DNA from: Siphonodentalium dalli
Taxonomy: Eukaryota > Mollusca > Scaphopoda > Gadilida > Siphonodentaliidae
Length of the DNA stretch: 64,000 nt
Assembly (NCBI GenBank): GCA_032622095.1
Contig: CP136063.1
Coordinates: 62,323,897 to 62,387,896, forward strand
Direction of reading: 5' to 3'
In this document: positions 3,967 to 61,096 of the stretch, piece by piece
Numbering within the stretch: the stretch's first letter is position 1
How the letters are laid out: every line of letters starts with the position of its first letter
Made by a program: the position numbers and the translations under genes
The notes under the pieces: generated by a model
Seen by the model: the letters and a program-made list of their open reading frames with translations, nothing else
The model's database searches: none
Told to the model about the DNA's origin: nothing

Positions 3967-5089
3967 CAAAAGTTACTTCACGATTGTTTGTAGACAAACA
4001 CTGGGAACTACCATATCGACCAATGAAAATGTTCCGTTGCGATGTGGAATGCATGGATACAATTATTGGCGCTATCAATAATCACATTCAAATCACACCA
4101 AATTTTATTTTAATCCACCCATTTTTCCCGCTGTCAGTTCAACATGAAGCTAATCCACATTACTTCATGATTGCGAAATGATCAGACAGAAAACATGTAC
4201 ATAACATGATTGTTCTCCAAAGAGATGAATCTTTTTCAATCCAGTTGGTATATTCTCCTAACCTATATATATGGTAATACATGCCAAACAAGGAATATTA
4301 CGATGAAGCGTATTTTGAGTTGTAAGCGCACCAACTTAAGTAGTTTTACAACCGACGTAAAGCTCGCAAATCTAAATACGGAAATGGCGCAATATCATGA
4401 CTTATCTTATAAGCAACCCACTGCGCTTTTTGTGAGTTAGGCAACCTGGTGGGGGCAATGATGGAGGCAATGGGGAAGGAGTGTAGAGGGGGTGGAGTTT
4501 TGACCCCCTACTTTGATCAAAATTTATACAGTTGACATATTCATGCCTGGTATTAGTTGTATATTAGATGTTTACATCGAAAACAGGTTAGAATTGTTCT
4601 CATAGTTTGGTTTTGGTTTTCCAACATGTGTGTTTTTTTTACCCAACAGTCCATATGTTCCCCTACTTCAGGTTAAACTGTTGGACCAAATTAGCCACAA
4701 ATTTTAACATTATGGGGTTGGTAATTTTCAAACGTTTGAGAGCTTGAAGTACTGGTACCAGTTGTAAAATTCAACCTTAGAGGGATGTGCAAAGGATTTT
4801 TATGAACTTAGTACTGTGGTATGGTTGTCTTCTTTAAAAGGTAAGAGGTTGGAGATTTGTCAGTGGTGTGCAATTAGAAATTTAAAGTTGAAGAGCTCTG
4901 CTCATCTGTGAACCTCGAGCTATGTCCATGTTTAGAACTACTTGTCTTATGTGATATTGTCACATACTGACCCTTGTAGTCTTCAGAGTCCCAGTCCTCT
5001 CAATCTGGTGTACAGTCATTGACTGTCTTGTTTGTTGCCTCGTAGAAGGAGATGTCAGTAAGTAATTTTGTCATTTGTTTGAGTTAGCA
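3967..5089. other. No supported gene
   Basis: A decayed coding-like stretch lies near 4300-4440: a frame reading YYDEAYFEL and RRKARKSKYGN, with stops. It may be the tail of the nuclease element or another gene, but I cannot assign it. The rest shows nothing recognisable. Confidence 0.35.
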
Positions 5090-5500
5090 TTAACCCTTTA
5101 CCCAACAAAACGGCCAAAAACGCCCAAATAAAGCTTCAACAGCCTAAAATATCTTTGGTCTGTCTCAATAACACCATACAAATATGGATATCATTGGAAC
5201 CGGTTCATTGACCACATTGTGATGGTTACAGTTATGCCCTGACCATAGGTCGCCTCGCATATATAAGAGAATGCATTGGCCTAAAAAAAAAATCTTTTTT
5301 AACACTTTTTACCATTTTTTCTTACATTCTTACATTTTTTAACAATTTTTATAATATTTTTCTACATTCTTTGACAATTTTATAATTTTTAATATGTGTT
5401 AAGCCAATGCATTCTCTTATATATGCGAGGCGACCTATGGTCGACTCGCATATATAAGAGAATGCATTGGCATAGGGCCGTTCTGTTGGTAAAGGGTTAA
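5090..5500. mobile_element. piggyBac-type MITE, copy A
   Basis: The 411-base unit is bounded by TTAA at 5090-5093 and 5497-5500. Its terminal inverted repeats are CCCTTTACCCAACA at the left and tgttggtaaaggg at the right (one base lost). A TTAA target and a CCC-type end are the signature of piggyBac elements. It has no coding capacity. Inside is a near-perfect palindrome, GCCAATGCATTCTCTTATAT followed by ATGCGAGGCGACC and its complement. Three more copies lie at 45664, 60699 and 63094. Confidence 0.85.
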
Positions 5501-38238: not shown

Positions 38239-40607
38239 CGGATACCCGTTTAGGTTCGGACATTCCAAGATGGCGGCGCCCACTAAAGCAGATAAACAGT
38301 AAGTGTATATATTGTCTTCAAGCAGCAATCAACGACATCTTTCGGTGATACACCTTGAACCAGTTATGTTGGAATTTGTATGCCCAACACATACGTAACA
38401 CGCCTTTCGCATGACAGGCATGTGAATTGTTGTATTTGGCGTGTCAAGTCGTCATAATTTTTCGAAATTTTATCGAGGCGGCGAAATGTCCGCTTTTTAG
38501 AATTTTTTTGGCCCTGGGCTCATGCATCTGCAAATTTATGTATTGTTGCGGGTAGATTAGGTCACCACACATCTTCGGAATGCAAAACCGGCGATATTTT
38601 TATTGTCCAACTCCGAAAAACGACCTTTGAAAATTTCAAAATGTTCAGGTTCGGATTCGCAACATTCGCGATGATTTTGTTCAGGTTCAGACACAATTTT
38701 CGTTCAGGGTCGGACAAATTTGGTTCAGGTTCGGACGCATCAAAAACTTCGCATAAAAATGACACGCCGAGGTAGTCGCGTTCTTATTGCGTTTTTGTGC
38801 ATTTGGTTATCTTCCATTCGTAAAAGAAACGATAAATGGGGAACACGAGGCATGGTTTTAGCCCACTTGTGAATTTGGGCGGACTTTGTTATTTTATGCG
38901 TGTGAGATGTATGCGATCATGTGATTCCCCTCCACATCCACATACGATGCCACGAAGGTCGCCGCATGTAGATGAGCAGATAACTGTCCATAATATAAGT
39001 TACATGGCTTTTTGAGGGGGGATACTGTGTGGTATGCCCCGGTAGAGGCTCGTATCACCCGAGGCGATCCCCCCTCAACAAGCCGTGTAATGATGTATTT
39101 ACCCCCAGTCTCTATTAACAATATATTCCCAGACATAAAGCGCAGAAACGAGCCATGAACAGTAACTCTATTTTGTTAGACTGCTTATACAATGAATGAT
39201 TACTCTCGGGGTCCAAATGAGCATACGGTGCGGAATAAGAGTACAGGGTGGACAATTCTGCTAAATCCAATAAGAGTACGGGGCAGAATAATAGTACAGG
39301 GTGGAAATTTCCAACATGGAAGCAAGTCCATCTGAAATTCTACATGTATATAAGGTCAATCATATATATTTCATAATTTTGCACTGTTTGTTGTCATAGG
39401 AATTACCAAACAGACTTTCGGCAACATGTTTGGACTATCTGTTCCTTATCTGAATGAAGGCTCCATCAATTCTGATAGGCCTGTAGTAAAAATTTCTTGA
39501 CAATCCCACTATATAAATAAACATACGGACCAAATAAGCACCATACAGGGCGGCAACTTTTCCAAAAATTAATAAGCATACGGGTATGCTTATTTGGATC
39601 CCAAGAGTATATAGCTGTTACCACAATTTGCCCATAAATACTTGCTGGCCTCGCTAACTTTAAAACAAATATCTGTTAGTGGATATACAATGGGGCAATA
39701 TATTTCACAAAAATAATGACAAATAAGTCGGACATCCCGAGTAAATGAGGCATGAATAACACGATAACCAGCACACCAGAAATTAACTTGGCTTTGCATG
39801 ATGTACTTTCGGACGTTCAATTTTTGTGGGCTAATTTCAGTTTCACAAGGGCGTAAGAGATTGTTTTTACCCTTGTATATAGCGACGACATTTTGTGCAG
39901 GTTAATACGATATAATTGTTTCCTGTTTAGTTAACATAATTATGTCGAACAAGAACACCGGGATACTTACAATTCTAGATTACAATCAATTTCAGCTGAC
40001 ATATTTAGATATAACAAATTAACAATGCATGTTCGTTAATAACACGCACAATAAGATCGCGACTGCACCTCGGCATGTCATTTATAGGTAAGGTTTTGAT
40101 GCGTCCGAACCTGAACTAAAATTGTCCGAACCTGAACCAAATTGGACCGAACCTGAACGAAAATTATGTCTGAACCTGAACAAAATCATCGCGAATGTTG
40201 CGAATCCGAACCTGAACATTTTGAAATTTCAAAGGTAATTTTTCGGAGTTAGACAATAAAAATATCGCCGGTTTTGCATTCCGAAGATGTGTGGTGATCT
40301 AATCTACCCACAACAATACATAAATTTTCGGATGCATGAGCCCAGGGCCAAAAAAATACTAAAAAGCGGACATTTCGCCGCCTCAATAAAATTTCGAAAA
40401 ATTATGACGACTTGACACGCTAAATACAACAATTCACATGCCTGTCATGCGAAAGGCGTGTTACGTATGTGTTGGGCATACTAATTCCTACATAACTGGT
40501 TCAAGGTGTATCACCGAAAGATGTCGTTGATTGCTGCTTGGAGACAATATATACACTTACCGTTTATCTGCTTTATCTTGGAATGTCCGAACCTAAACGG
40601 GTATCCG
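38239..40607. mobile_element. 2.4-kb DNA element with about 555-base terminal inverted repeats
   Basis: Ends are CGGATACCCGTTTAGGTTCG and its complement (CGAACCTAAACGGGTATCCG at 40588-40607). Arms 38239-38790 and 40045-40607 are near-identical reverse complements. Each arm carries four or five copies of a TTCAGGTTCGGAC-like motif near its inner end, plus one next to the terminus, which could be transposase binding sites. The interior (38800-40040) has a long hairpin at 39007-39090 (TTGAGGGGGGAT stems), repeated AATAAGxxTACxGGG motifs, and no convincing gene. It splits one coiled-coil array unit: left part ends at gaagctatt, right part resumes at atgattccacagatc. Confidence 0.85.
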
Positions 40608-45663: not shown

Positions 45664-46047
45664 TTAACCCTTTACCCAACAGAAGGGCCCTGTGCCAATG
45701 CATTCTCTTATATATGCGAGTCGACCATAGGTCGCATATATAAGAGAATGCATTGGCTTAACACATTAAAAATTATAAAATTGTTAAAGAATGTAAGAAA
45801 AAATGGTTAAAAGTGTTTTTTTTAGGCCAATGCATTCTCTTATATATGCGAGGCGACCTATGGTCGACTCGCATATATAAGAGAATGCATTGGCACAGGG
45901 TAAAACTGTAACCATCACAATGTGGTCAAGGAGCCGGTTCCAATGATATCCATATTTGTATGGTTTTATTGAGACAGACCGAAGATATTTTAGGCTGTTG
46001 AAGCTTTATTTGGCCGGTTTTGGCCGGTTTGTTGGGTAAAGGGTTAA
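45664..46047. mobile_element. piggyBac-type MITE, copy B
   Basis: TTAA at 45664-45667 and 46044-46047, ends CCCTTTACCCAACA and TGTTGGGTAAAGGG. It is 384 bases, in the opposite orientation to copy A. It contains two palindromic modules and sits in the relic gene just after a DDGPPAYIW-type exon. Confidence 0.9.
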
Positions 46048-46380
46048 TAATGTGGCATAATATCGGCTGACAATTAGAAACAGATGGCCATCGTGACAAT
46101 GACTAAAGACACACAGAGCTTTAAAAGTATAAGTTGTTACAAGCTAGGACTTCACTCCTATTTGTTTTGTACAGGTTTATGAACCAGAGATAATTATTAA
46201 AATGGGTGCAAACCAGCTGAGTTTTGCAGTATCATGAAGTGGACAATGTGTAATATAGATTTCTCCATTTTGAGCAGGTATATTGCACTGTTTTCCAAAC
46301 AATCTATGTCTTTATAGCCACCAATGGTGATGGACCACCAGCATATGTTCACAAAGTCTATATCTTTATATGTCTTTATA

Positions 46381-46600: not shown

Positions 46601-47202
46601 TGATAGTTTTAATCTTCACATGTAAAACTTTACTAAATGCAGCATTATCTTGATGCTTTAATCCATCTAAGTCAGCTCATTAGTAGATTGTAAGCAATTA
46701 ATAACCACAATTATAAAACATGTAAACATATACAAAAAGAGAATATCTTTCAGAGTTTTTGTCAGCTCAAAACTCATTGACGCTACCGATTTTATTATCT
46801 AAATCAACTTCGTGATTGGAAGCATTTCGTTTGTTAACTTTCCATTTTTTTCATAAAGCTGATGAAATGGAGTTTGTCTAAATTTTGACATGTCAACTGA
46901 CAATTAGAAACAGATGTTACTTTTGACAAAAATATATTGCTTCACAGTGCTATCTGTATAACGATTTGTAAGAATGAAAATGCCACATGGTACAATATGT
47001 GAAATCGAATATTGTGCTACGTTATTTATAATCGACACAAAAGTTTCTTTCATCAAGTTTCATCGCTATCTTATCTACTTGCTGTTCTGAACATCGCACA
47101 AAATATTTGCGATTTATGTTCCTATCATGGATACAAGACTGAGCCAACTCAGTCTGGATTTTAATGACAGACTCGGATGTATGTGTCGTCCACAGGCAGA
47201 TT
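46600..47202. other. Intron-like DNA holding an empty insertion site
   Basis: The sequence from 46600 to 46730 matches 51650-51877, and from 46731 to about 47160 matches 60005-60410. The junction aaacata|tacaaaaag at 46730/46731 is therefore the pre-insertion form of the site occupied by the nested elements at 51878-60002. No gene is seen. Confidence 0.8.
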
Positions 47203-49866: not shown

Positions 49867-51877
49867 TTAAATGACAGGAAACTAAATGCTTTGCCATTAC
49901 TGCTTTGAACTGAAGATGTGGAGAAGCTCAATATATACCTCACAAAAACAGCAAATAAATGATCTAGTGCTATACCTGAAGACTGTTCTACGTTCATCGC
50001 ATGCGCTCATGGCCGTGTAATATAATATCGCTGGTTACCACCGGAGAATTTCACCAGGCGACTCTAACTGTGCTGCGCAATCCAGACAAAACAAGAGATT
50101 GAATGTACACAGGACCAACACTGCGTCTTATGAGATGGGACGACAAGGCAACAGAGGAATACAATATGTTGTAAATTATATAATTTTAATTATACCCACC
50201 AAAGAGAACTGGACATTTGGAAACAGCAATCTGCAGCACTATCAGACAGTCGAGAAGCTATTTGGGATACCAATCAGAAATGATTCCACAGATCAGAATC
50301 AGTGGTATACCTTAAGACTGTTCTATCGTTCATCACATGCACTAATGGCCATGTGATATACATGTAGTATCGCTGGTTACCACTGGAGAATTTCACCTGG
50401 CGCCTCGAAAAAATAATACATTTTATGTGCAAAGAAGGACCAACGCTGCGAGGAATACAGTATGTTGTAAACTATGTAATTTTAATTATATCCACCATCA
50501 ACTATGTAATTTTAATTATATCCACCAAAGAAAACTGGATTGAACCTTCCCCGATTCTCAGTCATCTTCCCAACACTACCACTGGAAAGAATTCCACAGA
50601 AAGTCAAATGCGAGGCAGTTGAACTTACCATATGTTAGAAGTAGCAGCTTGCAAAAGCACACAATTCTAGAACAACCACAGATTTTTGCCGCTTCAGCAA
50701 TGTCAACATGACAATCTAATATGTTTAAGTCTAACGTTGTTCAAAGGTCACCGTTATCCAGGACCAGACTTTTTAGTAAAGATGTTTAAGTTTAACGTGG
50801 TGCAAAGGTCACCGTTATCCAGGACCAGACTTTTAGATAGAGAAGAAAGAGCGGAGGACATACCAGCGTATGCATTCATTGTATCTTGATAATTGATAAT
50901 TAAATAGCTTTTAAACAAACATCAGTGACCGTATTTTAGCAGATAATTTGGGATAATAATCCATGACGATTCCACAGATCAGAATCGGTGGTATACCTCA
51001 GACTGTTCGATCGTCATTCCGCCTCATGGCCGTGTTATATAATATTGCTGGTTATCACGGCAGAATTTCACATGGTGACTCTACCTGTGCTGCGGAATCC
51101 GAACAAAATGTGAAATTTTATGTGCGAAGCAGGACCAACGCTGCGTCTTCTGATATGGTACGACAAAGCCACAGAGAAATACAGTATGACTTTATAGCCA
51201 CCAAAGATGATGGACCTCCAGCATATATATGGATAGGAAAATCATTGCAATGTTCAAAACAGAGTTCTGCCAAAGAATTAAAACAACCCATTAACTGTCA
51301 TACATATGGACGAGTAGTCAGTCATTAATAATGCGACATAATATCAGCTGACAATTAGTAACAGATGGCCATTGTGACAATTACAAAGACCACCAGCCAA
51401 TATTCACACAGTCTATGTCCTTATAGCCCCCAATGATGATGGGCCTCTAGCATATATTCAGAATAGGAAAATCATTGGAATGTTCAAAATAAGAGTTCTG
51501 CCAAAGAATTAAACCAACCCAATTGCTGCCCTACATATGGATCAGAAGTTGATATGAACGATAACACAAGAGCCAATAAATTCTGTAAAATAATGAAGAG
51601 GTTGGTCTGTAACATTGATTTTTTGTCTATACAGTGGCTCTCAGCAAGTAATAGTTTTAATCTTCACATGTAAAATGTACTAAATGCAGCATTATTTGAT
51701 GCATTAATCCAGCTAAGTCAGTTCATTAACAAATTCTTATATTCTATAATTAAATGTTCTCATAATCTAGTATTGTATTTGAAAAACATCACACAAAATT
51801 GGAACCATTTTTGTAGCAACTGTTCCATTTTATAGATTGTAAGCAATTAATAACAATTCTGAAAACATGTAAACATA

Positions 51878-52004
51878 CAGTAATGCCCTAAATAATTGAC
51901 TCCTTAACCACAGCAGAATTACAAATAATTTTTAAGGATTTAATCAGAAATATGGCTTGTTGCCATCCATCAGAATGCACTCACCAAATTAATTAGGGCA
52001 TTAC
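51878..52004. mobile_element. Left part of a 129-base MITE with TA target site
   Basis: It starts CAGTAATGCCCTAAATAATT after a TA (51876-51877), and its right terminal repeat AATTAATTAGGGCATTAC reaches 52004. The missing TG and the flanking TA lie at 60001-60004, on the far side of the large element. A TA duplication and CAGT ends suggest a Tc1/mariner-type MITE. It is the landing site of the 8-kb element. Confidence 0.8.
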
Positions 52005-52076
52005 CAGGTCGGGCACAGGTACCAATCGATCTCCGGAGACCGAACGATCTAGGAAGACCGTTCGGTCTCCCCAAAT
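52005..52076 (+). repeat. Left terminal inverted repeat (72 bases)
   Basis: Identical in reverse complement to 59924-59995. It contains its own hairpin: GGAGACCGAACG (12 bases) pairs with CGTTCGGTCTCC across a 12-base loop, and an adjacent CTCCGGAG palindrome. Such a folded end could be a transposase recognition site. Confidence 0.95.
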
Positions 52077-52627
52077 TACTATGTTAATGAAGGAAGTCAT
52101 TGACGCGCACCGAAGCGACAGCGAAATCAGGTAACATCGAAAAATGTTGATCAAAATATAATTTTAGAGATGACTACCTGAGGGGATCATAACGGCACTA
52201 ATGTCGTATTTGAGTGCACATTCTTATTATTTTACCGGATGTTCTGCTGTTGATGAAAGAATTAGTTGACATAAACAATATTGTCAACATACGAGATAGA
52301 TTTTTTCCCATGCCATAATCGTGGTTGGATCAAGTGAACATCATCCAATCTCAAACTGTGTTGCAATCGGTGATTGGTTGGAATGCAAAGGTATGTTCTA
52401 TTAAATTAATGGGTACAATTTGTCGCAGCAGAAATAACAGCGGTCAACTACGGAAACACATAGAGGTAAAAACACTAACATATTTCGCTTGACGACCGGA
52501 CTGAAACGGTTCTATCGCTTACTATCCGTGGCAATGTATCCTACCACAATTAAATATGGTATAGCCCACAGATATCACAATCACGATTTATGCTGATCTG
52601 GTGACGACCACTCCCATTTGAAGGAGA

Positions 52628-52635
52628 TATAAAAG
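52628..52635 (+). promoter_or_regulatory. TATA box of the MADS-box gene
   Basis: TATAAAAG, 83 bases before the ATG at 52718. A TCAGAC initiator-like sequence follows at about 52652. The match to the mirrored box at 58907-58900 supports both. Confidence 0.55.
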
Positions 52636-52717
52636 CAAACAGAAATTTATATCAGACAGAAATAGCTACATAAAGAACAGCTGGACAGCGATATAGTACT
52701 AACTCACCGAACTAGTG

Positions 52718-55700
52718 ATGGAGACAGAAGCAGAAGCTGCGGCTGTGAGTATGCTACTATAGATAAGAGTCTGAAATACATGTATATATGCCTATAATTA
52801 TCATAGAACCATTGCAGCATTATCTCACAATAGTATTTGTTAATTGGAGTAGAATGACAACAACAACATCTTTATACGACTGCCGATAATGCAAAGGCAT
52901 CGGCGATAGGCTGATTTCCCGAAGATAGAAAGAGCATGAATGTTACACTAGTCAGTTTATATACGAGCAGTCAGTCTTTGTTTATTAATTTCGGCTCGAT
53001 ATATCAATAAAGAGCGTTTAATTTATTAGTTTCTTCAGGCAATGACAACAAAAATTAATAGAACTCAATGTGCTTATAGAGATAGAAATTTGGAAAATTG
53101 GAAACTCTGCATTCCCTTTATGCAATTTATATAACATTTCTGGAACGGGCTAATTAATTGGTTATAATTAAATAAATAACGTTTAATTTATTAGTATATG
53201 ATAAAAATCAGTTAATCCACTATACCTGGCACTCAGTGCACATGCTTATATGTGTGGGGATTATTGACAAAGAACGTGTAGGACTTACATATGACTCCTG
53301 AGTGTTTTTTTGTTAAAATAATTGATGTCCTCATAAGTGTTACAGAATGTAATAAAATTTTATATAAAGAAAAAAATGATAATAAATTGTTAGGCCAATG
53401 CATTCTCTTATATATGCGAGGCGACCTATGGTCGACTCGCATATATAAGTAAATGCATTGGCACAGGGTATGCAATGTCATTATGTATTGTTTTTGCAAC
53501 CTGTCCAGTGCCCACAGTTGGATGTTTATTGCAATATAGTTATCTATCTACAAAAATCGATGTCTGATCACCCTGACCTTTGATGGATGGGTTCCTCTAC
53601 TCGAATACAATAAATTTTGATAATGCATATTTAATATATTATTGATATACGAGTATACTCAAACTATGAGAAGATGAACAATTAATTAAAGTATTGTTAT
53701 TTACATTTACAGACGTCTTCCACCGACGACGATGTGGTATATGAAAATGACCAGAGCAAAGACAATCGGGGAAATAACGTCCCTGGCCAGAAGATGAGGG
53801 CGAAGAAGCATCACACGGGCAAAGTGGAATGCAAGTTGATCACCAACGCAAAAGCTCGTGGTCAGACATTCCGGAAACGAAAGTTAACATTGATAAAAAA
53901 GGTAAGTATTTGATTGCTAAATACCTTCATCAAGGTCCTGGTTATTGGCGATGAAATCATCATGTAATGTGTGCATGAATTGCTGCAATTTTTTGTACAG
54001 ATTGATCACATCATCCTTTTTCGATCGTTGAACTTTTTTTAAATAATTCACGATATTCGGTGTGTTCGCCGTCGTAACCAAGTTTGTGAATCTGGAAACG
54101 ATGGAATCATAAAACATATCATTGCAATAAAGAAACACATTGATTATCCAATATATCGTTCAATAAGTTGTTATGTGTACGCAACAAAAAATACAAAAGT
54201 TTCTGTGTGTAAACTCGACTCGCCCCTTTAATTATATCAACGATACTCACCTGATCAAGAAGAACTTCAACCATTCCTTTCAGCTGTGCAATAGTCTTCT
54301 TTTCTAGCCTCTCTGCTGCTTCGCGATCACTTTTCAACACATGGACGGGCTTGACATCGAATTTGTAGTTCCCCTTTTCTGTCGCATGGTTGATATATGC
54401 ATCTCTGTTTTGCATTGCTTTGTCCGTAAAGAGGTGCAACGAGTCGTCTAGTATGTCCCCTCCTGCGATTTGTAATAAGATGAAACGATCAGCTATCTTA
54501 ACATAATTTCTGTAATAGTTTCGAAACGCTCTTTAACCGTAGTCGCTAATAGGAAACCGACGCTCTTATAGTGAATAGTCTATTAGGTTGCTGTCGACGT
54601 GCTGACTTATGGTAATATAAACAATGATAAAGAGCGTTATTTACCAATTTTGAAAGTCATAACTTAGTAAAACTGGCTTTCATTAGACAGTTGGTTCTTG
54701 AATACGGCACTAAATACATAATAATGATAGTGATTGCCTGAGATAAAGTACGGATATATATACGGATATCTGTTGTAACAGCATATTTATACTCAAAGGG
54801 GTATAATTTGCGTTCTGGTATTATTTTAAACAGCTTGGAGCAACTGCTAACCATTCTTATCAGCTGGCGTCCCCCTTCTTTTCGGGACGTTCGTTAAGAG
54901 CTATCAGCTACTCGATTGCAATAGGATTTGTAATATGAACATTCCCCACTCGTCGGACAGGCGTCTTATCAAGTAATTCGCACTCGTTGAAATCGAGGTG
55001 TGAGATGACGCATGTAATATTGTTGGTTTATAGAGCAACCATTGTAAATGTAGAATATTTTAAATACCACATCATGCGTTATCGATATTCAGTATTTAAT
55101 TGGTCCAAATAATCCAGATCATACTATCGCCAAACGATTTTAACTGTGAGATACATAGTCGTAAACACAACAATCTGCGATCGTAAATAGAGTTATCGCT
55201 AGTGGACAGCAACGACGTATTGATTATTGATTATCGATTCTACATGGCTTTGCCTGTTCGCGATTTTCTCACTAACCCCTGGACCTATTTAAATCAAATT
55301 TTCTGTTGCGACTTTGGGTACCCCGGTCGATATTAAAATGGCTTTAGGTGTTAAAAATAAAAAATAAAATTTAAATTGTCAAATAATAATAAAATAGTTA
55401 AATTTAAGAAAAAAAAAATTCATTAAAATTTATTAGTTTGATGAAACTAACACTTACCAGAAAAACATGTTAAGGATATGGATATGTTTGCAGTATCCAG
55501 ATACCCACTTGAATTTAACTCTTTCTGCCATGCGTCTATTTCTTGCGTCAAATCCACTCTACGATGGTGGTCGACGGAGGCGATTTGACCGACAACGTTA
55601 ACTTCTTGATGTTTGATCTTATCTGCAAAAGAATAGAACCTAGGTTGAACATGTCATTTTTATTGTAGGGAAAACAATTGAGCAGCTCGACAGGAGCTGA

Positions 55701-56576
55701 TGTTTTCATTCGGATGAGGTACGAGGAGAAACAAAGTCTCTATTGGGGTACTCCGACCCTAAAGAACGAGTACAAGGTATTGTATAGTTTTCCATAGAAC
55801 AAACATCAATAATTTATTGAACAGTATTATTTTCAATACTTATTTAACAAACACCATTAACTTGTAAAAATCACAACTTATTCTATATTTCCGTGAATCA
55901 TATTTTAATACATATATTTTATGCAGAACAACAATGGTTGACTATCTTGGCGAAAGATGTTAGGAAATAAAGTTTATAGTTGTTATTTTGGCATCGCTTC
56001 AGAACATGTCTAGTGATGACTCGGCTCAGAATTATTATTTCAGAATGAAATTTGTTTAAAGCGTGCATGACAGATAAATATATTTGTATAATGCTGAAAT
56101 ATAATTAGATGTGTGTACATGTATTACTTTCCTTGTCGTATTTCCTGATGTATTTTTATTTTATTATTTTTTCAATTGAAGGAAATGCTGCAAATGAAGG
56201 CTGCAAGAACACCCAGGTCGGAAGAGGCAGAATCGGCGGAGCCATCGACGTCTGGATCAATTACAATATCATCATCAGAACCATCTGTTGTAAATTCGCC
56301 TAGCAATCTTGTTAGGCGAAGAAGTATCGAAACACAGACTGAGAAATATGTGCCCAAGTTGATCTACAGGCGTTCCCCATCTATTGCCCCGAGCATCGAG
56401 ATGAGCGTCTAAAAGCCCACCGCGAGTCCGACCCACAGTATTATGAATACGATGGGGATGAAGACGTCAATGGGGGGAATGTTGTGGTCGTGAACCAGAG
56501 TAGTAGAAGTGCCACGGGTAGAGGAAAAGGGAAAGCTCGTGGTCATGGCAGGGGCAGACCCAAGAAAGGGCAATAA
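52718..56576 (+). CDS. MADS-box (SRF-type) protein of the transposon, four exons
   Basis: Exons: 52718-52744 (METEAEAAA), 53713-53901, 55669-55776 and 56182-56412. Introns are GT-AG and all junctions are phase 0, giving 184 residues. Residues 45-90 form a MADS domain: GKVECKLITNAKARGQTFRK, then RKLTLIKK across the exon 2/3 junction to GKQLSSSTGADVFIRM, aligning with SRF around its TFSKRK and LTG segments. MADS domains dimerise and bind CArG-like DNA. Exon 4 is Ser-rich and closes at TAA 56410. A -1 frame is open beyond it to 56576: PEHRDERLKAHRESDPQYY and a basic tail GRGKGKARGHGRGRPKKGQ with an AT-hook core (RGRP). That reading would give about 239 residues, and AATAAA overlaps its stop at 56572. 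Either a one-base deletion or frameshifting separates the two parts. It may bind the element ends or control its promoters (inference). Confidence 0.85.
53226..53475 (+). repeat. Repeat fragment with palindromic module in MADS intron 1
   Basis: The full palindrome (gccaatgcattctcttatat then atgcgaggcgacctatggtc and its complement) at 53393-53462 matches the core of the piggyBac-type MITEs. The lead-in (aatgataataaattgttagg) matches 26490 and 34465. The TTAA ends are absent, so it did not arrive as an intact MITE. Confidence 0.7.
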
Positions 56577-58841
56577 ATATATTTTAACATGTCTTGCTAA
56601 TACTTGTCTTGTATACCATATACAACAGGAGAAACGCTATTCCAACAACAACAACAACAACCACCACAACATTATCCACAGAAAACCTATTGATTTTAGA
56701 GTTATCCAACTTAATCCGCAATTTGGTTCACGACCGTGGGCTTGTCGACGGTTTACTCCTAATCTTATTACATACATGTACATCTTTAATCATTTTCGGC
56801 ATATACTTCGAACTGTTGCGAAATGATCGTGTTCGAACGAATACTAACCTTTTCAAGGCAGTCCATGTTTCTACACACCCTCTGCCAGCGATGTTTATTT
56901 GGCAGTCCTGGTGGAATCCACATCTTTGTCCTTCGGTTCCTCGACTCCAGGACGAAATCCCCTCCCTCATGAACTGACGGGTCACCTGACTGAGAAAGCA
57001 GCATGTTGATCTAAATATTCGCGAACTTCCTCTGGTGCCTGTAATTTCATTACAAGGTCACGCATAAATATTTCTCGGTAATTCGGCATGTTAACACCGA
57101 ACATCAACAAACTGAGCTTACTTTGAGCCGCATTTATTATGTTTGCATTGTTTCTTCTAGTTCCGATTCTAAAGAGTTGTAGTCCGAAAATGTATGTGAA
57201 AACCATTTCAAATATAAACGTATAGTTTGAATTATTTGTTTGTGATATCCAAATGTACAGACCACATTCAGTTGGAGTTTCATTTTTCGTTTTACAATCA
57301 TCAACGTAGGGTTGCAGGAGTTCATTAGAAGTAGAAAATAGGATGGTAAGAATTTGATAAGCCTTGTGGTGGTCATACGCGCCCCTGCAGGCTGCCATAG
57401 CATTTGGCGACTTGAATCCCAACATTAAACCGACATCTTTAATTATCATGTCCCACAAAAGTTTAAAAATTGCCCGTACATAATTTATCTCATAATGTCC
57501 CAATCCAGGCACCATCAGAATGTTGTTAAATTTTCCGGTTTTATCTTGGTGCCTGGAACCAATTAAATACGGGGACCCATCGCACCCTACTATGGTCCAT
57601 TTGCGATCGTCTTTTATGGCACCAGTTTCCAGCTCTGCCAGCACACTGTCCACTGCTTCGGCGGAACTCGGGTTGACCAATATGGGTTCACCCATAACGA
57701 ATTGAGTATTTTGGACATTTGAAGACATTTTAACATAAGGATAATCATTGTTCACATTAGAATTTCGGATGCGATTTGCCTTATCGTCAACTTCCATACA
57801 TTCACTTTTATTTTGTTTATTTGTGTCAGCTAAAAACGTCAGGCGTTCTTTAATAAACTGAGATCGGCACTCTCGAAATATTTCTTCATGTTTTGACAAA
57901 GCCGAATGAATTTTATCCTTCGCCGACTCCATTTCCCTCAAATCAGTATGGAGCCACTGACGAGTGGATAGTGAATCTTTCCCTTGTATAAACGTATCGT
58001 CCGTTACGATATGTAAAACTGTTGTTATCACACTTAGCAGTGCTTTAGAGTTTACTTGAACCCTCCAACGTCTGGCCAAAACCTGATTGTTGTCCATAAA
58101 TGTTGAAATATTGGAATTGGCAGGAGTTAATGCATTTGACGATTCAGCGTTTGCCCAATTTAAAATTGTTGTGTATGATCCCGCCGGATGAACTTTACTA
58201 TAAATTGAACAGGCGGTTTTACTGCCTGTCATGTAATAATTCATCAAATTAATAATCATGTTCATGGGTCCAATATAGTTTAAGTCCCTCAAGTGGCGAA
58301 TCTGTTCCACGCACATTGCCAGAGAATTTGTTTTTTTTTCACTTGTTAATGTACTGCTGTCGACTATCCCTTCCAAAAACCCTACAATTATTTCATTTTG
58401 AGTTGATAGCCATGTTTTAGTAGAATAATTCTGAAGCGAGTTAGATGTCAGGGGCATCTCACATTGTTCATAAATTTTTTTCCTTTGGGTTTTCCCAATT
58501 TCTTTGGCTATTATAGAAAGACATGTATCGTCCATTGTCGGTATTGCATCCATAATTTCTTCAAAAGTTATTTTAGTGTCAGTTTGTGATGATGATGTAA
58601 TATGTTGTGTACTTAATGAAGGCGAAGATTCAACATCTGCGTTTCCAAGTGTTTGTTGTGCATACGATTCACAATCACCGCACAATCTACGAGCTTTTTT
58701 TGACAGAAAATCTTTTTCGTACAACAAATCTAAAGTCGCTTTTCGTATCCGTCAACTTTTAATAGTTATACACGCGGTGGAATTTGATGAATTCCAATTC
58801 ACATGTTGCTTACAACCACAATCACTTTTCGCACTATCCAT
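54011..58841 (-). pseudogene. Transposase-like gene of the 8-kb element, four exons, two or three lesions
   Basis: Minus-strand exons: A 58841-56845, B 55622-55458, C 54462-54251, D 54091-54011. Joined phases fit exactly (A ends one base into a codon, B starts with two), 818 codons including TGA, provided one extra base near 56992 is ignored. Exon A: MDSAKSDCGCKQH, a TGA at codon 30 (58754-58752), LCGDC, then after a long helical region IVGCDGSPYLIG (about 417-428), VPGLGHYEINYVRAIFKLLW (444-463), YDHHKAYQIL (489-498) and, past the frameshift, HEGGDFVLESRNRR and KMWIPPGLPNKHRW. Exons B-C: DLTQEIDAWQKELNSSGYLD, LDDSLHLFTDKAMQNRD and TIAQLKGMVEVLLDQ. I recall a widespread uncharacterised invertebrate family (cnidarians, amphioxus, molluscs) with the GHxEIN, DHHK, EGGDF and SGYL blocks; its link to transposition is supported here by the TIRs. 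A DDE role for the Asp/Glu residues is inference. Exon D could also be read in a second open frame. Confidence 0.8.
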
Positions 58842-58899
58842 TTTATATCCTCGATTATAGAGATAAACAGGGAACCAAAGCCAAAGCTAATGAGGTGAT

Positions 58900-58907
58900 C
58901 TTTTATA
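58900..58907 (-). promoter_or_regulatory. TATA box of the transposase gene
   Basis: TATAAAAG on the minus strand (CTATAAAAGATC in context), about 60 bases before the ATG at 58841. It is the same octamer as in the MADS promoter. Confidence 0.55.
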
Positions 58908-58921
58908 GAGGCAAATCAATC

Positions 58922-59173
58922 ATTTGGGGTTTGCAGACGACGAATCACGATTGTGGCAATATCATTGGTTGATATGGAAGTTGCTTACAACAACATTAAA
59001 ATATCATTGGCTGATCACGTTATCTTTTCAAGTTATGGGGGTCACGTTACGTGTGCCCCTGGAACTTGAGTTGATAACGCGGTTAGCCAATGATATGCCG
59101 ATATTGTGGTAAGCAAAATCCATATAACCAATGAAATTGCCAGATCGTTATTCGTCTTCATTCGGCCCCAAAT
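58922..59173. repeat. 252-base imperfect palindrome upstream of the transposase promoter
   Basis: The left arm (atttggggtttgcagacgac at 58922; atatcattggttgatatgg) and the right arm end (tcattcggccccaaat, 59158-59173) are reverse complements around a centre near 59047 (gggggtcacgttacgtgtgc). It could be a small foldback insertion or a structural element of the transposon. Confidence 0.8.
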
Positions 59174-59311
59174 TAATGGATGTTCACCGATTCAACAATT
59201 TCGTCCTCTCATATTAAAAAAAAAATGACATGCTTTAATGTCGATAAATTTGTGAAATTCAAGCTTTGAATATCACGCAAGAAGAAAGATGTATGAGGTG
59301 AGTGTTGTGTT

Positions 59312-59338
59312 GGGGGGGGGGGGGGGGGGGGGGGGGGG
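59312..59338 (+). repeat. Run of 27 G
   Basis: G homopolymer between the palindrome and the right TIR of the 8-kb element. It could fold as a G-quadruplex. The length is uncertain. Confidence 0.75.
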
Positions 59339-59923
59339 TCAGCTATAGGCCTACAAATTATTCACATTAAAACATTCACGCATGTTGGAACGTAATACTT
59401 AAACGCTCATAACTTAGTCTCTTTTTTGTTGTAATAAGCATTATTATTTCAAATAATATGCAATTTACTTCAAATAATGATTTATGTCACTTTAACAAAA
59501 ATTTCGGTTTGTCCGGAAACTATATTTCCCCATATTCCGTGTTTCATAACAAACCTGTCTCCCGTAGATCAGTACATTTTCGTACCGTTATACTGCGTTC
59601 TAAATAGTGCATTGCAGTGCACCACACATTTTAACCAATCAAATCGTTTCTTTCGTATATACCCCAAGTGACACATCGAATGCACCACAAGAGTTGATGG
59701 AAACGATATTATTTGATCAAGTAAAGACTCATTTTTCATAGTTTTATCGACACGGTTCACCATTTTTATTAGGTACGACATCTGAAATGAGCATTAAAGT
59801 GTTGAATAATGCTCCAACATTTTCAGGTTTGCATTTTAATTTGCTAAAATACTCGTAGATATTTTTGAGTAGCCATTTATCGAGGTACAACATGCCTTCT
59901 AGCGACTATCCAATATCACTGAT

Positions 59924-59995
59924 ATTTGGGGAGACCGAACGGTCTTCCTAGATCGTTCGGTCTCCGGAGATCGATTGGTACCTGTGCCCGACCTG
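59924..59995 (-). repeat. Right terminal inverted repeat (72 bases)
   Basis: Exact reverse complement of 52005-52076, ending CCTGTGCCCGACCTG, followed by the target duplication ATTAC. Confidence 0.95.
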
Positions 59996-60002
59996 ATTAC
60001 TG

Positions 60003-60430
60003 TATACAAAAGGGAGTATCTTTCTGAATATTTTGTCAACTCAAATTGAATACCCTGATTTTATTATCTATATCGACTTAGTGATGGAACAGTTTCATTT
60101 TATTAACTAGAAAATGGAACCTGTCTAAATATTGACATGTCAACTGACAATTAGAAACAGATGGCCATTTTAACAATGACTAAATATGTACAGAGTTGAC
60201 ATTTGATAAAAATATATTGCCTCACAGTGCTATCTATACCATTGTATAATTACTGGTATAATCTCCAAATTTCGTACTACGTTATTTCAGTCGACTCAAA
60301 AGTTTCTTTCATGAAGTTTCATTGCGATGTTATATGCTTGCTGTTCTAAACATCGCACAAAATATTTGCGAGTTATCATGTATACAAGAATGAGCTCAAT
60401 CTGGTTTTTATTGGTGCAGTTAATTAATGA
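60003..60430. other. Right flank, paralogous to 46731-47160
   Basis: Matches the 46.7-kb locus across tacaaaa...gtatctttc, tgacatgtcaactgacaatt, and gtttctttcatgaagtttca. No gene is seen. It confirms the original continuity of the DNA before the nested insertions. Confidence 0.75.
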
Positions 60431-60698: not shown

Positions 60699-61096
60699 TT
60701 AACCCTTTACCCAACAAACCGGCCAAAACCGGCCAAATAAAGCTTCAACAGCCTAAAATATCTTCGGTCTGTCTCAATAGAACCATACAAATATGGATAT
60801 CATTGGAACCGGCTCCTTGACCACATTGTGATAGTTACAGTTAGCCCTGTGCCAATACATTCTCTTATATATGCGAGTCGACCATAGGTCGCCTCGCATA
60901 TATAAGAGAATGCATTGGCCTAAAAAAATCTTGTTTTAACACTTTTTACCATTTTTTCTTACATTCTTTAACAATTTTATAATTTGTAATGTGTTAAGCC
61001 AATGCATTCTCTTATATATGCGAGGCGACCTATGGTCGACTCGCATATATAAGAGAATGCATTGGCACAGGGCCGTTCTGTTGGGTAAAGGGTTAA
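60699..61096. mobile_element. piggyBac-type MITE, copy C
   Basis: TTAA at 60699-60702 and 61093-61096 with ends CCCTTTACCCAACA and TGTTGGGTAAAGGG; 398 bases, same orientation as copy A, with two palindromic modules. Confidence 0.9.

Follow-up and report, generated by a model that had tools for sequence, protein, structure and literature searches.

DNA transposons that pair a transposase with a separate DNA-binding accessory protein include PIF/Harbinger, with its Myb-like protein, En/Spm with TnpA and MuDR with mudrB. In the RAG1/RAG2, ProtoRAG and Transib systems a 5-bp duplication goes together with an enzyme gene and a convergent gene for a PHD-containing partner in one element; RAG2 has kelch repeats and a PHD finger that plays a chromatin-tethering role for RAG1, and Transib ends start with CACWATG. 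The element described here lies in a 64,000-nucleotide stretch of the genome of the scaphopod Siphonodentalium dalli (C3:62323897-62387896, the whole of which is referred to as the window). It is bounded by terminal inverted repeats (TIRs) and encodes a putative transposase related to the DUF6589 family on the minus strand and a MADS-box protein on the plus strand, which in a second full-length copy also carries a PHD finger. The element probably belongs to a family of two-component cut-and-paste transposons whose partner protein would bind both element DNA and chromatin, and which is thus RAG2-like in its logic.

The two TIRs of the window element are identical at 72/72 bases, start with CAGGTCGGG and include an inverted repeat of 12 bp (TIR positions 31-42 and 55-66). 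Genome searches covered 2.23 Gb in nine contigs and yielded at least 40 TIR matches (40 of the 54 candidates were scored), which form 12 inverted pairs spaced by no more than 12 kb. Two of these, the window element and locus L009, are about 8 kb long. The other ten are short (0.7-3.9 kb), match the element at both ends and hold neither gene, which is what non-autonomous derivatives of the element predict. Both ends could be examined in 13 copies, namely the 12 inverted pairs and L027, and an exact 5-bp duplication is present in 12 of the 13: in the window, in nine of the 12 loci scored by script and, when mutated ends are allowed for in scoring by eye, in L012 and L019; L011 has none. The consensus of the 12 duplications tends to the palindromic R-T-W-A-Y, with T at position 2 in nine and A at position 4 in ten. 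The family therefore displays what is looked for in TIR cut-and-paste transposons: shared TIRs, a duplication of fixed length, a related empty site and internally deleted copies.

Joining the flanks places the insertion site in a small palindromic repeat, within its terminus, and this repeat is itself nested in a larger one; the last bases of the split repeat, TGTA, are found at 60001-60004. The small repeat occurs at several other loci (L009, L023, L028 and more), and its unsplit terminus, GCATTACTGTA, was recognised by eye in the flank of L009 and, reversed, at the other end of the repeat itself. The element has thus inserted into a repeat whose unsplit form exists. The related site that lacks both the palindromic repeat and the transposon (Table 1) is 90% identical to the left flank over 48 columns and 74% identical to the right flank over 204 columns, as checked by eye on the letters.

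An initial annotation of the window had described a complete transposon with identical 72-base TIRs, an ATTAC duplication and two multi-exon genes filling the space between the ends. The ends, the duplication and the gene models on opposite strands all hold, but the genes do more than fill the space since their exons are interleaved: the MADS gene holds transposase exons 2-4 in its intron 2, and the transposase gene holds MADS exons 3 and 4 in its intron 1. This antisense interleaving is present in all three families checked, that of the window and those of the distant copies L059 and L060. Completeness likewise applies to the structure but not to the coding capacity. Compared with L009, the window transposase is interrupted by an in-frame TGA in its N-terminal part (58752-58754), shifts frame near 56990 and differs again in frame in exons 2 and 4, while the PHD finger is not visible in the window copy because a 139-bp deletion has removed it. 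The window copy is therefore structurally complete and coding-defective, and was either moved in trans or decayed after insertion.

L009 is 93-96% identical to the window element over three aligned blocks. Its transposase exon 1 and its MADS-PHD exons are open, the former within a 710-aa stop-to-stop frame that includes some upstream and intron sequence. The window and L009 are the two full-length TIR-bounded copies with both genes, each with a 5-base duplication. Further MADS-bearing copies are L020, L022, L023 and L024, each in a 10-kb stretch that also contains one family TIR; in L024 and L022 homology to the element begins just inside the left TIR (window 52081) and other sequence stands in its place. 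Between the two full-length copies the ratio of nonsynonymous to synonymous substitution rates (dN/dS) is well below 1: 0.28 for transposase exon 1 (644 codons), 0.14 for the MADS domain (99 codons) and 0.33 for the remaining exon 4 (129 codons). Over all comparisons it ranges from 0.21 to 0.69 for the transposase (10 pairs), 0.10 to 0.89 for the MADS domain (defined in 14 of 15 pairs) and, among 10 pairs, 0.33 to 1.37 for exon 4; copies with broken frames are among those that give the higher values.

Four exons joined at ordinary splice sites make up the model of the plus-strand gene. In L009 this gene is predicted to encode a 288-aa protein comprising a MADS domain, a PHD finger and a basic RGRGRPKK tail; within exon 4 the PHD-type zinc finger is followed by the GRGKGKARGRGRGRPKKG tail, which we take to be AT-hook-like. 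Judged from the protein sequence, the MADS identity of the partner is secure in four sequences from three families: the Pfam SRF-TF model (PF00319, cut-off 26 bits) scores 37 bits in L009 and, when the MADS halves of exons 2 and 3 are joined, 35.9 in L059, 44 in L060 and 35.1 in the window. Single halves score lower, such as window exon 2 with 22.2 bits. A profile of the same four sequences finds MCM1 and SRF in the PDB with an expectation value (E) of 2.8e-10, followed by MEF2. The PHD finger (PF00628, cut-off 24 bits) is above the cut-off in one of five exons, that of the L039 family (28.6 bits), the others scoring 16.3, 23.2, 18.5 and 22.2, and the PHD exon has a weak PDB match to the PHD finger of BPTF (0.01). 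Its zinc ligands C-C-C-C-H-C-C-H are aligned in five of six families, and L044 has the first seven but not the last. A search of 5.8 billion proteins for MADS-PHD homologues returned 656 candidates and none at E <= 10.

Position, copy number and the conservation of acidic residues all lend good support to the proposal of the initial annotation that the minus-strand gene is the transposase. Exon 1 contains an N-terminal zinc-ligand motif and the motifs DNNQ, GCDG, GHYEIN, DHHK and EGGDF, and exons 2-4 when joined align over 171 aa with P0002, an oyster protein, at its C-terminal end (22%, E 3.7e-6, six proteins compared). Six protein homologues, P0001-P0006, were found, two of which have organism names attached (Saccostrea cucullata and Argopecten irradians), and a profile search with seven transposases recovered the same six only. 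P0001-P0004 and the L009 open reading frame (ORF) match DUF6589 (PF20231) with E values of 2.9e-8 to 1.6e-3; P0003 with 33.3 bits is the sole one above the gathering cut-off of 27 bits, compared to 25.7 for P0004 and 17.6 for L009. P0005 and P0006 are unmatched and the window ORF has no Pfam match at E <= 1. The label DUF6589-related is used because the link runs through the homologues and the window ORF falls below the cut-off. Pfam scans of the window ORF, the six homologues and the L009 ORF contain no RAG1 or Transib family, a result that is compatible with remote homology.

Residue conservation was followed in 31 rows from the same genome (L009 and L029-L058) aligned to L009, of which L030 repeats L009, L032 equals L041 and several more are near-identical. 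Among the rows that cover them, the acidic residues D266, D437 and E467 (L009 numbering) are conserved in 27/27, 30/31 and 26/27, the zinc-ligand residues C23, C25 and H28 each in 12/13 and both C69 and C72 in 22/22. The conserved D...D...E would fit an RNase H-like core, and the enzyme may accordingly employ DDE catalysis. In two low-confidence structure models the second D is immediately preceded by the end of a strand, after which come a helix, a strand and a helix bearing the E, an order that fits strand 4 to helix C of the RNase H fold in models too poor to serve as proof. The transposase profile matches 32 PDB chains at E <= 10, the best at 0.09, and these are mainly zinc-finger chains aligned over an insert in some relatives. 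This C2H2-like zinc finger, which scores below the Pfam cut-offs, is located between GCDG and GHxEIN in P0002, P0003, P0004 and P0006 and is absent from the window ORF, P0001 and P0005. Of viral contigs, 75 stretches fit the search pattern and none is a relative.

The two genes travel together well beyond the window. The window transposase gave at least 121 matches in the genome (74 of 618 candidates scored), the homologue P0003 at least 80 (62 of 615) and the L009 partner at least 98 (135 of 260), most of the partner matches and the distant ones especially being the PHD exon alone. All 121 and 98 rows were used for pairing, together with 45 of the 80 P0003 rows, the other 35 lying at loci already covered. 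Merging of same-strand matches less than 3 kb (transposase) or 13 kb (partner) apart left 80 transposase and 83 partner loci. A transposase locus is found within 12 kb of 46 of the 83 partner loci, and in all 46 pairs the partner is antisense to the transposase and on its 3' side. When transposase loci were placed randomly on each chromosome, the number of pairs averaged 0.118 over 500 trials and never exceeded 2. The transposase loci of the window-transposase search alone pair with 44 of the 83 partner loci, and the first 51 partner rows gave 23 paired loci out of 39. The coupling of a MADS factor to the transposase, which the initial annotation would have called accidental had other TIR copies never enclosed the genes or had the genes sat at fixed single-copy loci, is thus upheld by this uniform arrangement and by L009, where TIRs 8.2 kb apart bound both genes. 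A region of C6 (67.5-71.9 Mb, 0.2% of the genome) contains four of the 40 TIR matches, all on the minus strand, about ten transposase matches and about 12 of the 83 partner loci; this cluster is possibly a graveyard, a tandem duplication or a PIWI-interacting RNA (piRNA) cluster.

A MADS profile built from the window, L009, L059 and L060 newly identified L042, L061, L062, L064 and L065 as well as further copies of the window family. Five families have both the MADS and the PHD exon, the latter identified in each of them, and their transposases are about 33-47% identical to that of the window by segment. In the four families other than that of the window a MADS exon lies beside the transposase: in the L059 family (about 47% to the window ORF), in that of L060 and L042 (41-42%), in the L065 family (37-46%; MADS match with an E of 1.2e-13) and in that of L064 and L061 (33-43%; first MADS half at 1.1e-8, second at 0.013). 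In a selection of six of the available families, identity in the PHD finger is correlated with identity in the transposase (Mantel r 0.81, a value reached in 12 of 720 permutations), as is expected if both genes descended together. The pairing of MADS-PHD gene and transposase is therefore conserved across distant families of one genome. One end of the L039/L040 family was placed by comparison of the two copies (CACAATGATG...), whereas a search of L060 revealed no opposite end. In L039 and L040, which belong to a family of 42% identity, the copies diverge at about position 91 just outside CACAATGATGTAGTACC, whose likeness to the Transib start is given no weight here.

It is proposed that the minus-strand gene encodes the DUF6589-related transposase, which would cut at the TIRs and insert with a 5-bp stagger, and which would also mobilise the short TIR-bearing copies in trans. 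The partner would most likely be a transposition co-factor: a dimer of its MADS domain most likely binds element DNA, perhaps the TIR palindrome or subterminal DNA, while the PHD finger and the basic tail may tether the complex to chromatin and thereby raise its activity or influence target choice. Binding to the TIRs, reading of histones, contact between transposase and partner and the accessory DNA-binding or regulatory role that the initial annotation gave the partner are inferred.

A number of results weigh against this proposal. No CArG box (CCW6GG) is present in the element (shuffle mean 0.65), and its three MEF2-like sites are no excess over the shuffle mean of 2.93. The structure models of the transposase are poor (mean predicted local distance difference test scores, pLDDT, of 51.5 and 56.1) and a Foldseek search with the first gave none of 39 matches at E <= 0.001; because of both, the RNase H fold is at most putative. 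TIRs are established for the window family only, and L061, from the fifth family, scores 12.5 bits with its second MADS half alone, against the cut-off of 26. The 46 pairs include near-identical copies and are not 46 independent events. Furthermore, the scans, which were partial and exon-wise, revealed no counterpart for 37 of the 83 partner loci or for 34 of the 80 transposase loci; not all of these may be truly alone, and some PHD matches may be host genes. Finally, exon 4 reaches a dN/dS of 1.37 in pairs with damaged copies.

MADS proteins classically bind promoters, and the MADS-PHD protein could instead be the transcription factor of the element, acting on its own promoters or as a copy-number repressor outside the transposition complex. 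Since the genes are convergent on one shared stretch, a promoter would be expected near either end of the element, and overlapping transcription of the antisense, interleaved exons would add to the control. By itself a regulatory role leaves unexplained why the PHD finger has been retained alongside the MADS domain wherever both were found, in five families, and we consider it unlikely, though deserving of serious thought, as the whole function of the partner. It is far less probable that the minus-strand gene is no transposase and that the enzyme of another element moved the TIRs. The undemonstrated RNase H fold would allow this, and the ten short TIR pairs out of 12 show that ends without genes are evidently movable. 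Both full-length copies, however, enclose the minus-strand gene, whose family is multicopy with 80 loci and open frames of up to 770 aa and has nearly invariant acidic residues; moreover six other ORFs between the TIRs (74-129 aa, smaller frames not having been scanned) contain no Pfam transposase family. The poxvirus-protein match of one ORF (17.2 bits against a cut-off of 24.1, in a low-complexity frame) is taken as chance. Transposons do capture host exons and 37 of the 83 partner loci have no paired transposase locus, but the idea that the element carries the MADS-PHD gene as a captured host passenger of no functional value to itself is rejected as scarcely credible, given the antisense 3' position common to all 46 pairs (mostly PHD-exon matches), the MADS exon in five families, the partner divergence that tracks the transposase, the low MADS dN/dS between the full-length copies and the absence of any homologue at E <= 10 from the protein search.

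The window contains other repeats as well. A foldback family is represented at window positions 53387-53468, 45664-46048, 60699-61096 and 5089-5478, with inverted matches that are 80-99% alike; one member is situated within intron 1 of the MADS gene and the same member is found in L009. An inverted-repeat element at 38284-40575 has 357-bp arms that are 95% complementary and spaced by about 1.6 kb.

Table 1. Coordinates of the element, its genes and its insertion site (window positions unless a contig is given)
Feature	Position	Strand	Remarks
Whole element	52005-59995		7,991 bp, TIR-bounded
Left TIR	52005..52076	+	72 bp
Right TIR	59924..59995	-	72 bp
Target-site duplication, left copy	52000..52004	.	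ATTAC
Target-site duplication, right copy	59996..60000	.	ATTAC
Small palindromic repeat	51875..52004	.	TACAGTAATGCCC...GGGCATTACTGTA; right terminus split by the insertion
Related site without palindromic repeat and without transposon	46684..46929	+	left- and right-flank matches side by side
Candidate TATA-like box upstream of MADS gene	52628..52635	+	TATAAAAG
MADS-PHD exon 1	52718..52744	+	ATG to GTGAGT donor; equivalent exon in L009
MADS-PHD exon 2	53713..53901	+	first MADS half; CAG acceptor, GTAAGT donor
MADS-PHD exon 3	55669..55776	+	second MADS half; gene model
MADS-PHD exon 4	56182..56576	+	acidic/serine linker, PHD remnant, basic tail; frame broken in window copy
Breakpoints of 139-bp deletion (relative to L009)	56350..56356	+	PHD finger lost
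Transposase exon 1	56849..58841	-	DUF6589-related; contains the TGA and the frame change
Transposase exon 2	55457..55622	-	within intron 2 of the MADS gene; approximate limits, judged by eye
Transposase exon 3	54248..54463	-	within intron 2 of the MADS gene; approximate limits, judged by eye
Transposase exon 4	53920..54090	-	within intron 2 of the MADS gene; approximate limits, judged by eye
L009, second full copy	C8:146183705-146191934		8,230 bp, TIR-bounded, both genes; duplication ATATA

To our knowledge no MADS-box protein has been described as a component of a transposon. Searches of the open-licence literature for DUF6589, alone or with transposition, and for MADS combined with transposon, TIR and mollusc, or with transposase, PHD finger and duplication, found nothing, which is weak evidence; the main text of PMC12730594 contains neither MADS nor PHD. 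If the proposal is correct, a protein family that is listed as of unknown function acquires a mobile role, and a PHD partner conserved across transposon families becomes a natural comparison for the way in which RAG2 couples DNA cutting to chromatin, a coupling that could then be tested outside vertebrate immunity. The interleaved antisense exons would also provide a compact case of two genes under joint selection on one stretch of DNA. We suggest tentatively, as a possibility somewhat short of even, that the family represents a superfamily of eukaryotic DNA transposons not described before, whose DUF6589-related transposase has co-evolved with a MADS-PHD subunit that reads chromatin, a RAG1/RAG2-type design of independent or very distantly related origin.

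Compared to the known systems, the element shares with PIF/Harbinger, En/Spm and MuDR a transposase with a separate accessory gene and the presence of non-autonomous derivatives, but its accessory protein combines MADS, PHD finger and basic tail, and its exons are interleaved in antisense. The MADS core is that of SRF and MCM1, which differ in that the protein described here is fused to a PHD finger and encoded by a transposon, in an element that has no CArG box. DUF6589 is a Pfam family without an assigned function, which in the present case is linked to a MADS-PHD partner as well as to TIRs and target-site duplications. With RAG1/RAG2, ProtoRAG and Transib the element has in common the 5-bp duplication and the convergent genes for an enzyme and a PHD-containing partner within one element. 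It differs from them in that the transposase is DUF6589-related, the partner contains a MADS domain instead of the kelch repeats of RAG2, and the TIR begins with a sequence other than the CACWATG of Transib.

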